DNA of 36,070 nt, from IMG/VR virus record IMGVR_UViG_3300001533_001671, positions 1 through 36,070 of that record; one strand, written 5' to 3'. Of this stretch, positions 19,453 through 25,553 are shown in pieces. The notes beneath the pieces are model-generated. The model did not search any database, was not told the origin of the DNA, and was given only the letters and a program-made list of their open reading frames with translations. The translations under genes were made by a program, and so were the position numbers. This DNA comes from a virus. Position 1 is the stretch's first letter. Each line of letters opens with the position of its first letter.

Positions 19453-19655
19453 TTAAGTTTTATAGTACAGATTGTCCTAATTGTAGGATTCTGGAAAAGA
19501 GATTGATTGAGGCTGATGTGTCTTATGAAAAGATTACAGCCATGAAAACGGTTATGGAGATGGCTGAGAGACATAATTTTTCTAGTGTTCCATTTTGTGA
19601 AAAGAATGGTGTTTTTATGACCTTTCGAGAAACAATTGAATGGTTGGATGGTTAG
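19449..19655 (+). CDS. Glutaredoxin/NrdH-like redoxin (CPNC)
   Basis: This 68-residue glutaredoxin-fold protein has a dithiol active site C9-P-N-C12 after strand IKFYSTD and the cis-Pro motif SVPF. Size and sequence suit an NrdH-type hydrogen donor. It overlaps the preceding redoxin by four bases and ends two bases before the nrdG start at 19658. Some class III reductases use formate and others a redoxin; this arrangement favours the redoxin type, as an inference. Confidence 0.85.
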   Translation: MIKFYSTDCPNCRILEKRLIEADVSYEKITAMKTVMEMAERHNFSSVPFCEKNGVFMTFRETIEWLDG

Positions 19656-19657
19656 TT

Positions 19658-20182
19658 ATGAAAGCGGTAATATATAGTCCAGAAGGTTCTTTTTTGGATT
19701 ATCCCACAGAGGATTATTGTATAGGGTATTTTTTTCACGGATGTGATTTCAGATGTCCTAATTGTCATAACTCTGATTTACAAACACCACCGAATCTTTC
19801 TAAAGGGGTTACTGTAGATCAGTTTATAGACAAGCTCTATGACGATGCCGGGGCATTTGGCACTTACAAGATTGCTTTAATGGGGGGTGATCCTTTATCA
19901 ACTTATAATGAAGAATTTACTTATTCTTTGCTACAAAAAGCTGATGATTTTGAATTTTGTGTTTATACGGGTTATGAATTGGAAGATTTAGATGTTGATA
20001 TGTTAAGAAAATCATCATCTTTGCGATTCTTAAAGACAGGTGTTTTTGATGAATCTAAATTTGTGGGAAGTGAAAAAACAAATAACTTTTTTCAATTAGC
20101 TTCTACAAATCAGAAGTTGTATGAATTAGTTTATGGTGAATTAGTATTAGTTTCTTCTGAAGGGAAGTATAAATATAATTAA
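19658..20182 (+). CDS. nrdG: Anaerobic ribonucleotide reductase activating protein
   Basis: This 174-residue radical-SAM enzyme has cluster cysteines C29-x3-C33-x2-C36 (GCDFRCPNCHN) and the glycine-rich SAM segment ALMGGDPL. It generates the glycyl radical on NrdD using S-adenosylmethionine. Start ATG 19658 is preferred over 19640, which would overlap the upstream gene. nrdD follows 14 bases downstream. Length and motifs are standard for phage and bacterial NrdG. Confidence 0.9.
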   Translation: MKAVIYSPEGSFLDYPTEDYCIGYFFHGCDFRCPNCHNSDLQTPPNLSKGVTVDQFIDKLYDDAGAFGTYKIALMGGDPLSTYNEEFTYSLLQKADDFEFCVYTGYELEDLDVDMLRKSSSLRFLKTGVFDESKFVGSEKTNNFFQLASTNQKLYELVYGELVLVSSEGKYKYN

Positions 20183-20196
20183 ATGTGGAGGCTTGA

Positions 20197-22008
20197 ATGT
20201 TTACAGAATTAAATGGGAATCAGCTTAAAAAGAAGAAGGAGTTTATACGGCATTATTCTGATAAAAGTAAAAATGCGTCAACTGCTAGTTTATTTGATCC
20301 TAATGCAAATGTAACACATAAAAATATATGTACGTTGCAGGGTGAATTATATAAGGATATGACTATACAGATCAATAGAAGTTTGGTGTATGATAAGATT
20401 GAAAGTATTTTTGGGAACCAACAGGCTGATAAGTATTTGGCTCAGTTGAAAGATCATGTTATTTATGTTAATGATGAATCTTCTCTGAAACCGTATTGTG
20501 TGGCTATTAACATGGCCCCAATGCTAGAGAAAGGGACAAAGCCTCTAGGGGGGCAATCAAACGCACCAATCCACCTAAAGTCTTTTGCTGGTATTTTTAT
20601 GAATACAGTTTTCCAGGTGGCCGCTAATTTCAGTGGAGCTGTAGCAACCGTAGAATTTTTATTGTATTTTGATTATTTTGCTAAGAAAGAATACGGCGAA
20701 AATTATTTGGAAACTCATAGGAAAGATATTGTAGGTTATTTTAAGCAGATTGTGTATGGTATCAATGAACCCGCTGGGGCTAGGGATTACCAGTCTGTTT
20801 TCTGGAATATTTCTATCTTTGATAAGTATTATTTTGAAGGGTTGTTTGGCGAGTTTATGTTTCCTGATGGCACTTTCTCTCATTGGGAATCATATAATAA
20901 ATTGCAGAAATTCTTTATGGATTGGTTTGATAGTGAAAGAAATAAAGCTTTGCTAACCTTCCCGGTAATTACGGCTGCTATAAAAACAAGTTCGGAGCCT
21001 AGTTATGATGATAGGATCATTGAGGATCGGGAGTTTTTGGATTTTGTAGCAGATCAGTTTAGTAGGTACCATAGTTTCTTTATCTATCAATCAGATACAG
21101 TTGATTCTCTTAGTTCTTGTTGCAGACTTAGAAATAATATATCCGATCCACAATTTACTTATACTTTGGGCGGTACTGGAATTTCAACTGGCTCTGTAAA
21201 TGTAGTTACCATAAATATGAATAGGGTTGTGCAAAAAGGATACGATATGGATTCCCTGGTAGATGATGTTCATAAGTATCAAGTAGCTTTTCGTCGTATT
21301 TTTGAGGAGTATTTACAATCGGGATTATTACCTGTCTATGATGCGGGTTATATTGAAATGGGTAAACAATATAGTACTATTGGTTTGAACGGGGTTTTAG
21401 AAGCTGCGAGTTATCTTGGGTTGGACACTACATATAATAAAGACTATGTTAAGTGGTTACAGAATTTGTTAGGATCGATTTATAAAAAGAATCGGGAAGC
21501 TCACAAGACTTACGGTATTATGTTCAACACAGAAATTATTCCAGCAGAAAATTTAGGTATTAAAAACTATAAATGGGATAAGGTAGATGGCTTGGTAGTT
21601 CCAGAAGATAGAGAAGTTTACAATTCTTATTTTTATGTAGTTGAAGACGATGAACAGAATTATTTGAATGGGTTTAAGCTTCACGGTCATGAAGTTGCAG
21701 AATATTTGGATGGTGGTTCCGCTAGGCATTGGAATTTGAAAGAGAACTTGACTAAGCATCAATGGAAAAAACTTATTGAAGATGTAGCTAAAATTGGAGT
21801 CCCTTATTGGACTTACAATATACCAGATACTATTTGTGATGATTGTGGTAATATTGATTCAAGGTATTTATCTAAGTGCCCTGAATGTGGGAGTGATAAT
21901 ATAGATCATTCAACAAGGATTATTGGGTACCGTAAAAGGGTTTCATCATTTTCAGAGGCTAGGCGTGTGGAAGAAAAAGCTAGATTTTATGAAGTTTTAG
22001 GCGAATAA
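20197..22008 (+). CDS. nrdD: Anaerobic (class III) ribonucleoside-triphosphate reductase
   Basis: This 603-residue protein converts NTPs to dNTPs without oxygen. Conserved blocks include AGARDYQSVFWNIS, LTFPVITAA and the active-site SSCCRLRNN. C-terminally there is a zinc site (C547, C550, C561, C564) and the glycyl-radical region RIIGYRKR with G577. The N-terminus lacks the ~100-residue ATP-cone of many bacterial NrdD proteins. The length is close to T4 NrdD and implies loss of overall dATP feedback. RBS GGAGG precedes ATG 20197. It forms an operon with nrdG and the two redoxins, and a new promoter starts right after its stop. Confidence 0.93.
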   Translation: MFTELNGNQLKKKKEFIRHYSDKSKNASTASLFDPNANVTHKNICTLQGELYKDMTIQINRSLVYDKIESIFGNQQADKYLAQLKDHVIYVNDESSLKPYCVAINMAPMLEKGTKPLGGQSNAPIHLKSFAGIFMNTVFQVAANFSGAVATVEFLLYFDYFAKKEYGENYLETHRKDIVGYFKQIVYGINEPAGARDYQSVFWNISIFDKYYFEGLFGEFMFPDGTFSHWESYNKLQKFFMDWFDSERNKALLTFPVITAAIKTSSEPSYDDRIIEDREFLDFVADQFSRYHSFFIYQSDTVDSLSSCCRLRNNISDPQFTYTLGGTGISTGSVNVVTINMNRVVQKGYDMDSLVDDVHKYQVAFRRIFEEYLQSGLLPVYDAGYIEMGKQYSTIGLNGVLEAASYLGLDTTYNKDYVKWLQNLLGSIYKKNREAHKTYGIMFNTEIIPAENLGIKNYKWDKVDGLVVPEDREVYNSYFYVVEDDEQNYLNGFKLHGHEVAEYLDGGSARHWNLKENLTKHQWKKLIEDVAKIGVPYWTYNIPDTICDDCGNIDSRYLSKCPECGSDNIDHSTRIIGYRKRVSSFSEARRVEEKARFYEVLGE

Positions 22009-22886: not shown

Positions 22887-22959
22887 GCCGACTTAGCTCA
22901 TTTGGTAGAGCAACGGTCTTGTAAACCGTAGGTGGTCGGTTCGAGTCCGACAGTTGGCT
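22887..22959 (+). tRNA. tRNA-Thr (anticodon TGT)
   Basis: Full cloverleaf: acceptor GCCGACT / AGTTGGC (one G-U), D-arm GCTC / GAGC with GG, anticodon stem ACGGT / ACCGT with loop CTTGTAA, and T-arm GTCGG / CCGAC with TTCGAGT. CCA is not encoded. It decodes ACA, a codon suited to this A+T-rich genome. Confidence 0.95.
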
Positions 22960-22961
22960 AT

Positions 22962-23033
22962 GTGTCCGTGGTGGATAGGTAATGCTTTTGTTTGTGGAAC
23001 AAGTTTATGCGGGTTCAAATCCCGTCGGACACC
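22962..23033 (+). tRNA. tRNA-His (anticodon GTG)
   Basis: Acceptor GTGTCCG / CGGACAC, anticodon stem TTTGT / ACAAG with loop TTGTGGA, and T-arm GCGGG / CCCGT with TTCAAAT. The D-stem is weak (three pairs, two of them G-U). The discriminator is C, as expected for tRNA-His. No extra G-1 opposite it is encoded; the base before position 1 is T. It lies two bases behind tRNA-Thr. Confidence 0.88.
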
Positions 23034-23044
23034 AGTAATCTTAG

Positions 23045-23112
23045 AGGGGTCGCTAATGGTAAGCAACGGGGTTCATATCCCTGTGATGGGGGTTCAAATC
23101 TCCCTACCCCGA
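23045..23112 (+). tRNA. tRNA-Met-like (CAT anticodon), short and initiator-like
   Basis: The anticodon arm CGGGG / CCCTG has loop TTCATAT (CAT). Three consecutive G-C pairs lie next to the loop and pair 1-72 is not Watson-Crick (A-G), both hallmarks of initiator tRNAs. The T-arm is GGGGG / CTCCC with TTCAAAT. The acceptor has only five good pairs (GGGGT / ACCCC). The D-arm is short (GCT / AGC), and the whole is ~68 nt, below normal length. It may be a true phage initiator-type tRNA, a lysidine tRNA-Ile2 or a decaying tRNA. Confidence 0.55.
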
Positions 23113-23213
23113 ATGATTATTTTTTTTAATGGTGGAGGTTCTAACTGCTTTGAAAATCCAACAAAATCAAAAGAAATCGGTTAAAATCACTTACTTTTTA
23201 ATCATAAATAGTG

Positions 23214-23839: not shown

Positions 23840-24946
23840 ATGAGACAGTTAGCAAGTGTTCAAAAAATTGAAAGTTTGAGTCCTATTAAAGGCAAGGATC
23901 GTATTGAATTGGCGAGAATTCAAGGATGGGATGTTATCGTAGGGAAAGGTACTCATAAGGTCGGTGATCTGGTAGTGTATATTCAATACGACACAGTTCT
24001 TCCCGAAAGACCTGAGTTTGAATTTCTTAGAAGTAGGTGTTGGAATAAACGTTATAAAGGTTTTAGAATTCGTAATATGTCTATGGCAGGTGTGTTTTCT
24101 CAAGGCATTGTTTTTCCAACATCTATTCTTATTAAAGACTCTTATAAGGAGGGTAAGGATGTAACCGATGAGTTAGGTGTTATTAGATATGCTCCAGAGG
24201 AACTATTTGAGAATAGTAAATCTAATAATAATCAAAGTGGTTTGTATAGATTTTTTATGAGGTATGGTTGGTTTCGCAAGCTCTTTGGTAAAACTTGGAA
24301 AGAAAAAAAGGGTAAGTTTCCAGAAAATATTAAGAAAACTGATGAGAATAATGTACAGGCAGTTTTTAATTCTTTGCCAAAAGATCACACTTGGACTGTA
24401 ACTGAAAAGATTGAAGGGCAGTCTGTCACTTGTTCAGTGGAGTCTATTAAGTTAGGTTTTTTTACGAAACGAGATTATAAAGTTTTTTCTAGGAATTGTT
24501 TTGTAGGAGAAGGTGCTTCTAATTGGGGGAAGGTTTCTAAGAAGTATAATATTAAACAAAAACTTCTTAAAGAGAAGACAAAGTACACTATTCAAGGTGA
24601 GATTGCTGGCCCAGGAATTCAAAAAAATATTTATGGGTTACCAGAATTAACTTTATTTGTTTTTTCAGTAATTGAAACTGATACTGGGTATAAACTGCCG
24701 TATGATCTTATGATAGAGCTTTGTGATAAATGGGGGTTGCGTTATGTGCCCATTATTTCTACAGGGTTCACTTTACCAGAAACATCGGATGAGCTTATTT
24801 TAATGTCAAATGGTAGCTCTGTTGTGGAAAATGATCATAAGCAGATTAGAGAAGGTGTTGTGTTTAGGAGTGAACAAAATCCTAGATTGTCGTTTAAAGC
24901 TAGATCACCAGAATATCTAAAATGGTGGGATAAAAAAGGTATTTGA
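23840..24946 (+). CDS. RNA ligase with N-terminal OB domain (DraRnl/DRB0094-like)
   Basis: This is a 368-residue protein. Residues 1-110 (SLSPIKGKDRIELARIQGW, GDLVVYIQYDTVLP) resemble the N-terminal OB module of the Deinococcus-type RNA ligases. After a Lys/Asn-rich linker (~125-170) comes the adenylyltransferase: K190-I-E-G (motif I), VFSRN, IQGEIAGPGIQ (motif III), REGVVF (motif IV, 337-342) and SFKARS (motif V, K353). It should seal 3'-OH/5'-phosphate RNA nicks using ATP. It is flanked by tRNA genes upstream and a tmRNA-like RNA eight nucleotides downstream, which suggests repair or maturation of these RNAs. Confidence 0.9.
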   Translation: MRQLASVQKIESLSPIKGKDRIELARIQGWDVIVGKGTHKVGDLVVYIQYDTVLPERPEFEFLRSRCWNKRYKGFRIRNMSMAGVFSQGIVFPTSILIKDSYKEGKDVTDELGVIRYAPEELFENSKSNNNQSGLYRFFMRYGWFRKLFGKTWKEKKGKFPENIKKTDENNVQAVFNSLPKDHTWTVTEKIEGQSVTCSVESIKLGFFTKRDYKVFSRNCFVGEGASNWGKVSKKYNIKQKLLKEKTKYTIQGEIAGPGIQKNIYGLPELTLFVFSVIETDTGYKLPYDLMIELCDKWGLRYVPIISTGFTLPETSDELILMSNGSSVVENDHKQIREGVVFRSEQNPRLSFKARSPEYLKWWDKKGI

Positions 24947-24953
24947 TTTAACA

Positions 24954-25031
24954 GGGGTCGTAAAGGTTTAGACTATTATTAAAACCCGCAAGGGGAGTAG
25001 TAGGACTTGGGTTCAATTCCCAACGACTCCA
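24954..25031 (+). ncRNA. Mini-tmRNA: tRNA-like domain of tmRNA closed by a short hairpin, no tag ORF
   Basis: Acceptor GGGGTCG / CGACTCC pairs fully and contains a G3-U70 pair with A73, the alanyl-tRNA synthetase identity set. Next is a stemless D-loop analogue, TAAA-GGTTTAGAC (bacterial tmRNA: GG(A/T)TTCGAC). A P2-like helix CTATTATT / AGTAGTAG is capped by CCC-GCAA-GGG, with a GNRA-type loop. Then come GGAC and T-arm TTGGG / CCCAA with TTCAATT. Order and spacing match the 5' and 3' ends of bacterial tmRNA, but the ~300-nt tag and pseudoknot region is absent. No 7-nt anticodon loop with T33 fits. CCA is not encoded. It starts eight bases after the RNA-ligase stop and is probably cut from that transcript. 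Confidence 0.75.
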
Positions 25032-25058
25032 ATAAAAATTTATTACAGGAGGTGTTTA

Positions 25059-25553
25059 TTGAATTGGAGAGAGTATCAAAGTAAGGCAATTCAAACAGTA
25101 ACACATGGTACAAGGGAAAAAGCTCTATCATGTTTTTTGTTTGGTATGCTTGGGGAATGGGCCGAATTAGATGATAAGATCAATAATTCAGCATCAGAAG
25201 ATTTGGTAAAAAAGGAACTCGGTGATTTTTCATGGTACCTGGCTAATTATACAAATGCTATGGGTATACATAAAATTAGTTCAGAGTATGTTAATTTTGT
25301 GGTATATGAACCTTGGAAAGTTATTGCAGAATTTCAAGAGAAAAATAAAAAGTGGTACCGGGATAAAAACTGGGAACTTGATGAGGAGGATTTGAAGGTA
25401 GTAAACAAGTATGTAGGAATTTTGTATGGGTTGTTTAATGAGGTGTGTACCAGAAGGAATTATAATCCCTCAGACATTTATACTTTGAATATTGAAAAAT
25501 TATTTTCTCGAAAGAAACGGGGTACTATTTCTGGTTCAGGAGATGAGAGGTAA
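25059..25553 (+). CDS. MazG-like nucleotide pyrophosphohydrolase
   Basis: This 164-residue protein starts with TTG at 25059 behind AGGAGG. It has the all-alpha NTP-pyrophosphatase metal motif: E33-x2-E36 (GEWAELDD), then E53-x2-D56 (KELGDFSWYL) with 16 residues between, inside the EXXE-EXXD spacing of the family. Members hydrolyse (d)NTPs or related nucleotides to monophosphates and PPi. In phages they cleanse the dNTP pool or affect (p)ppGpp signalling, the latter debated. The C-terminal ~60 residues are a variable extension. Confidence 0.8.
   Translation: MNWREYQSKAIQTVTHGTREKALSCFLFGMLGEWAELDDKINNSASEDLVKKELGDFSWYLANYTNAMGIHKISSEYVNFVVYEPWKVIAEFQEKNKKWYRDKNWELDEEDLKVVNKYVGILYGLFNEVCTRRNYNPSDIYTLNIEKLFSRKKRGTISGSGDER

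Follow-up and report, generated by a model that had tools for sequence, protein, structure and literature searches.

A 36,070-nucleotide stretch of viral DNA (positions 1 to 36,070 of IMG/VR record IMGVR_UViG_3300001533_001671, hereafter the window) carries at positions 24954-25031 an element that sequence comparison strongly supports as a phage-encoded transfer-messenger RNA (tmRNA) cut down to its tRNA-like domain, here called a mini-tmRNA. The Rfam tmRNA model RF00023 matched the element with 55.8 bits (E = 1.5e-20; cut-off 47 bits) and was spanned at both ends, while 302 of its internal positions, which hold the tag frame and pseudoknots, were replaced by 9 nt. Only 29 nt separate the D-loop motif from the GGAC that precedes the T-arm, and no tag reading frame with a resume codon and stop was found between the two halves of the element, ruling out a full-length tmRNA that works by trans-translation. 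R1, a covariance model built from 18 sequences, gave the window element 81 bits and tRNA-like matches at most 36, and the single-strand fold of the element was more stable than those of shuffled sequences (z = -2.85). The RF00023 score, the folding z and the covarying homologues described below place the element far from chance.

Neither of two more familiar identities fits. An ordinary tRNA, including tRNA-Ala, is rejected because the element has no D-stem or anticodon arm, the tmRNA model outscored the rest of its clan, and ARAGORN, run on the window, called no tRNA or tmRNA at 24954-25031. A permuted (two-piece) tmRNA is rejected because the 5' part comes first and RF04321 scored 18.3 bits against a cut-off of 47. 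The original prediction, made from the letters alone, had proposed the tRNA-like domain of a tmRNA that lacks the messenger part and had named Infernal and ARAGORN as checks; with RF00023 over its cut-off, covarying homologues in hand and no ordinary tRNA fold with an anticodon found, that homology is strongly supported.

All the parts that the original prediction had named are present in the sequence (Table 1). Its P2-like helix was described by the CCC-GCAA-GGG hairpin, which stands, and is refined here to a longer composite helix whose 7-bp stem includes two G-U pairs; P2 occupies the place of the entire messenger and pseudoknot part, and its stem covaries in relatives. Acceptor positions 5-7 had been said to differ from the common tmRNA sequence, which holds for pairs 5 and 6 but not for pair 7 when compared with the E. 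coli tmRNA sequence. No CCA is encoded at the 3' end, where ATA comes next. Elsewhere in the family the D-loop motif occurs in the variants GGTTTCGAC, GGTTTTGAC and GGATTCGAC.

Table 1. The mini-tmRNA of the window, its parts and its neighbouring genes.
Feature	Position	Strand	Evidence or composition
Mini-tmRNA (tRNA-like domain of tmRNA only), G1 to A73	24954..25031	+	RF00023 55.8 bits over 24954-25034; model R1 81 bits
Acceptor stem 5' strand GGGGTCG	24954..24960	+	pairs 7/7 with 25024-25030, including G3-U70
D-loop motif GGTTTAGAC (tmRNA GG(A/U)UUCGAC)	24965..24973	+	sequence
P2	24974..25002	+	7-bp stem TATTATT/AGTAGTA, asymmetric A-rich internal loop, 3-bp hairpin CCC-GCAA-GGG
GGAC preceding T-arm	25003..25006	+	sequence
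T-arm, 5 bp, TTGGG-TTCAATT-CCCAA	25007..25023	+	sequence; pairs covary
Acceptor 3' strand CGACTCC with U70, then discriminator A73	25024..25031	+	sequence; A73 = 25031
RNA ligase gene, upstream neighbour	23840..24946	+	Pfam PF09414, PF21189; phrog_968
MazG-like gene, downstream neighbour	25059..25553	+	phrog_229

Mini-tmRNAs form a phage family

Searching viral contigs with a strict pattern returned two homologues, whose P2 stems are wholly different in sequence yet paired. A looser pattern returned at least 120 loci, the majority clear mini-tmRNAs with a few ordinary tRNAs among them, and three narrower patterns returned 13, 18 and 62 loci. Pairing filters were passed by at least 129 distinct elements in at least 175 loci, mostly in phage contigs, both counts being lower bounds. 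Pattern-confirmed elements scored at least 58 bits with R1, well apart from the tRNA-like matches; a single match fell between, at 49.7 bits (locus L061, 5-84, + strand), as a second, weaker mini-tmRNA match on a contig that has another at 1317-1395. A comparable pattern applied to 84,980 bacterial and archaeal species genomes gave 12 loci, 5 of which scored as mini-tmRNAs, and the pattern in its GGTTTAGAC form had no match in bacterial genomes. By DNA similarity, the window element gave chance matches only among phage records.

Cultured Streptomyces phages are among the carriers: LuckySocke, pSt2308, BRock, Shaeky and Riptide were confirmed with R1, and their records show no feature at the place of the element, while GiJojo and Alone3 are putative carriers by DNA similarity only. 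ARAGORN's call for one relative (L002) was a tmRNA of 652 nt, beginning close to the element but ending far beyond it; surveys based on this program would miss or misread mini-tmRNAs.

Several matches were set aside. Those in cyanophages S-CAM1 (L128, 2479-2680) and S-SSM7 (L131, 2484-2740) and in Tunturiibacter phage Tunturi_4 (L132, 2122-2960) look like full permuted tmRNAs; the cyanophage records show a hypothetical protein or nothing at these places. In the apparent Tunturi_4 permuted tmRNA the 3' part of the acceptor comes first, followed by GGGGACGACATGGCTTCGAC, and the gene begins directly after an annotated RF-1 domain release factor gene, two ribosome-rescue genes thus adjoining. Matches in Microvirga and Synechococcus contigs were not accepted owing to broken acceptor pairing; in Microvirga lenta, two identical 91-nt matches on different scaffolds (L134, 2189-2279; L135, 6791-6881), each with two acceptor pairs broken, are perhaps decayed or integration-related copies.

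Helices covary while charging and SmpB bases are invariant

The original prediction had pointed to covarying homologues as a check, and those recovered here show strong covariation in the acceptor, P2 and T stems. The covariation score was 0.698 in the 18 sequences (0.159 when shuffled) and 0.773 (0.150 when shuffled) in a model-fitted alignment of 97 matches, a few of them tRNAs; 96% of cells in this alignment were paired, compared with 45-52% in slid versions. RNAalifold independently recovered the acceptor, P2 and T helices.

The searches fixed the letters GG(A/T)T..GAC, GG.C and the T-loop, and the filter fixed G1 and G2 of the 5' strand. Although not fixed by the searches, G3-U70 and A73 were invariant in all 129 distinct elements, while acceptor pairs 4-69, 5-68 and 6-67 each occurred as five types and loop position 18 varied. 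The alanine identity of tmRNA lies in G3-U70, and the predicted chargeability through this pair is strongly supported. The T equivalent to U17, fixed in some patterns, was likewise present in 129 of 129, and also in all 80 distinct looser-pattern elements listed, where this position was open. The same 80 elements had GG.C as GGAC throughout, the A having been left open in that search; by E. coli numbering, we take this A to be A334. Position 15 is T in most elements, including that of the window. In tmRNA, A15, U17 and A334 form a pocket for SmpB Trp122 (PMC8363625). Judged from these patterns of conservation, selection appears to keep both alanine charging and SmpB binding across the family, because G3-U70, A73 and the equivalents of U17 and A334 are invariant while neighbouring pairs vary.

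Mini-tmRNAs recur at particular genomic sites

Two recurrent sites emerge in the family, one just upstream of the major capsid gene and the other within tRNA arrays. For about 10 distinct elements the next gene encodes the major head protein, on the same strand and 33-300 nt downstream, and a head maturation protease gene lies upstream of the element in 4/4 such loci tested. Loci L014, L024, L046 and L188, from different phages, have the mini-tmRNA between these two genes. The elements of the five R1-confirmed Streptomyces phages lie inside tRNA arrays, and other members adjoin exonuclease or RNA ligase genes. The orientation of flanking frames was left out of the evidence, since the simple ORF finder used to count it mistakes long chance frames for genes.

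In the window, the RNA ligase gene stops 7 nt before the element and the MazG-like gene is preceded by a good ribosome-binding site (AGGAGG, 25047-25052), all three being on one strand; ARAGORN placed three tRNAs at 22887-23113. RNA ligase as a constant partner was rejected, as it accompanies the element in 8 of 50 carrier records. In each of these 50 records RF00023 exceeds the cut-off once only, with a short match every time, and in this set, some of which may be fragments, we found no full-length tmRNA (RF00023), no SmpB gene and no RF-1/ArfB (RF-1 domain) gene; with no phage SmpB found in these records, host SmpB would therefore be used. Searches with the DNA polymerase of the window phage turned up nothing close among viral contigs and only distant relatives among phage records. 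At 19640-22008 are genes for a radical-SAM activase-like protein and an anaerobic ribonucleotide reductase, whose presence suggests that the host is anaerobic.

Known messenger-less tmRNAs

The original prediction held that no such form was known, which is incorrect: Mycobacterium phage DS6A has one, as do mitochondria and some plastids (PMC4131195, PMC11915505). The DS6A tmRNA is listed as 'TLD only' (tmID 11587), and it is the single phage example named in these two sources, which cite Mao et al. (2009). Going by that published description, DS6A and the window element share a gene reduced to the tRNA-like domain, although the window phage looks unrelated and its host is perhaps anaerobic. 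The messenger-less tmRNAs of mitochondria and of Mallomonadaceae plastids (about 65 bp in the latter) are likewise tRNA-like domains without a tag frame, but the mitochondrial ones usually derive from permuted genes, whereas those described here are phage genes and not permuted (PMC11915505). Full-length phage tmRNAs, both one-piece and two-piece, have been reported in 402 phages (PMC9004378); these too are phage-encoded tmRNA relatives, but they keep the messenger domain that mini-tmRNAs lack and can in principle tag proteins, and ARAGORN surveys pick them up while in most cases not detecting the mini form. A literature search, whose coverage mostly excluded subscription journals and preprints, found no paper on a phage mini-tmRNA family. 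The present analysis adds the window member, shows how broad the family is and that its charging and SmpB bases do not vary, and identifies the recurrent sites.

A decoy of host trans-translation as the favoured explanation

On balance, we lean towards an alanylated, SmpB-dependent decoy of host trans-translation as the best explanation of the mini-tmRNA. The element would probably be transcribed together with the adjoining genes and processed to some 78-81 nt, charged by host AlaRS via G3-U70 and A73, and bound by host SmpB and EF-Tu, so as to compete with host tmRNA for ribosomes stalled on nonstop mRNA. Having no tag frame, it would be unable to complete trans-translation and would thus act as a dominant-negative decoy, reducing tagging and degradation during infection to the presumed benefit of the phage. 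By analogy, the idea is supported by experimental precedent in E. coli, where a similar RNA, that of phage DS6A, is reported to inhibit tmRNA (PMC4131195 and PMC11915505, citing Mao 2009). The same precedent also weighs against the decoy as formulated here, in that charging is described as unnecessary for the published inhibition, whereas the family keeps its charging identity without exception.

A plain sponge that sequesters SmpB (or EF-Tu or AlaRS) off the ribosome would fit the report that such an RNA inhibits whether or not it is chargeable, perhaps through SmpB titration (PMC4131195); we nevertheless consider it improbable, since titration alone leaves the conservation unexplained, and G3-U70 and A73 invariance in 129/129 elements beside variable pairs 4-6 is not predicted if charging is irrelevant. 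A role on the ribosome, as an alanyl-RNA with SmpB and EF-Tu, is what the invariant charging identity points to instead. This would also suit an active, template-free rescue RNA, in which the charged element and host SmpB accept the stalled nascent chain and add at least one alanine, after which drop-off, peptidyl-tRNA hydrolase or some other rescue factor clears the complex, and ribosomes are released with no degradation tag placed on phage proteins. In its favour, the charging identity is invariant, which a pure SmpB sponge would not need; messenger-less tmRNAs persist beside SmpB in mitochondria, where they are believed to assist with incomplete mRNAs (PMC11915505), and several mini-tmRNAs sit inside phage tRNA arrays. 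However, no release route is known after transfer without a template, an RF-1-family release or hydrolase partner was not found in the 50 phage records, and the similar RNA is described as an inhibitor (PMC4131195). We therefore regard such rescue as possible but doubtful, and only tentatively entertain the broader proposal that phage mini-tmRNAs are alanyl-charged, untagged rescue RNAs that replace host trans-translation, more than SmpB sponges.

A cis-acting tRNA-like signal that processes or stabilises the adjacent mRNA would account for the elements that precede the major head protein gene on its strand, but it is very unlikely given the members in tRNA arrays or beside exonuclease and RNA ligase genes, and it would have no need of AlaRS- and SmpB-specific bases. 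That the element is what prophage integration left of a host tmRNA gene, or an artefact of assembly, is the hardest to credit: tmRNA genes are common integration sites (PMC11915505) and the Microvirga and Synechococcus contig matches do have broken acceptor pairing, but the acceptor keeps both of its strands, with covariation between them, in 129 divergent sequences, which already contradicts a remnant, and cultured phages with finished genomes carry the element.

Translation quality control would come under direct viral attack from a phage RNA able to disable or rewire ribosome rescue. That charging and SmpB bases stay the same in at least 129 distinct sequences suggests that the strategy is common among phages and missed by gene finders, and the cultured Streptomyces phage carriers make the function of mini-tmRNAs testable.
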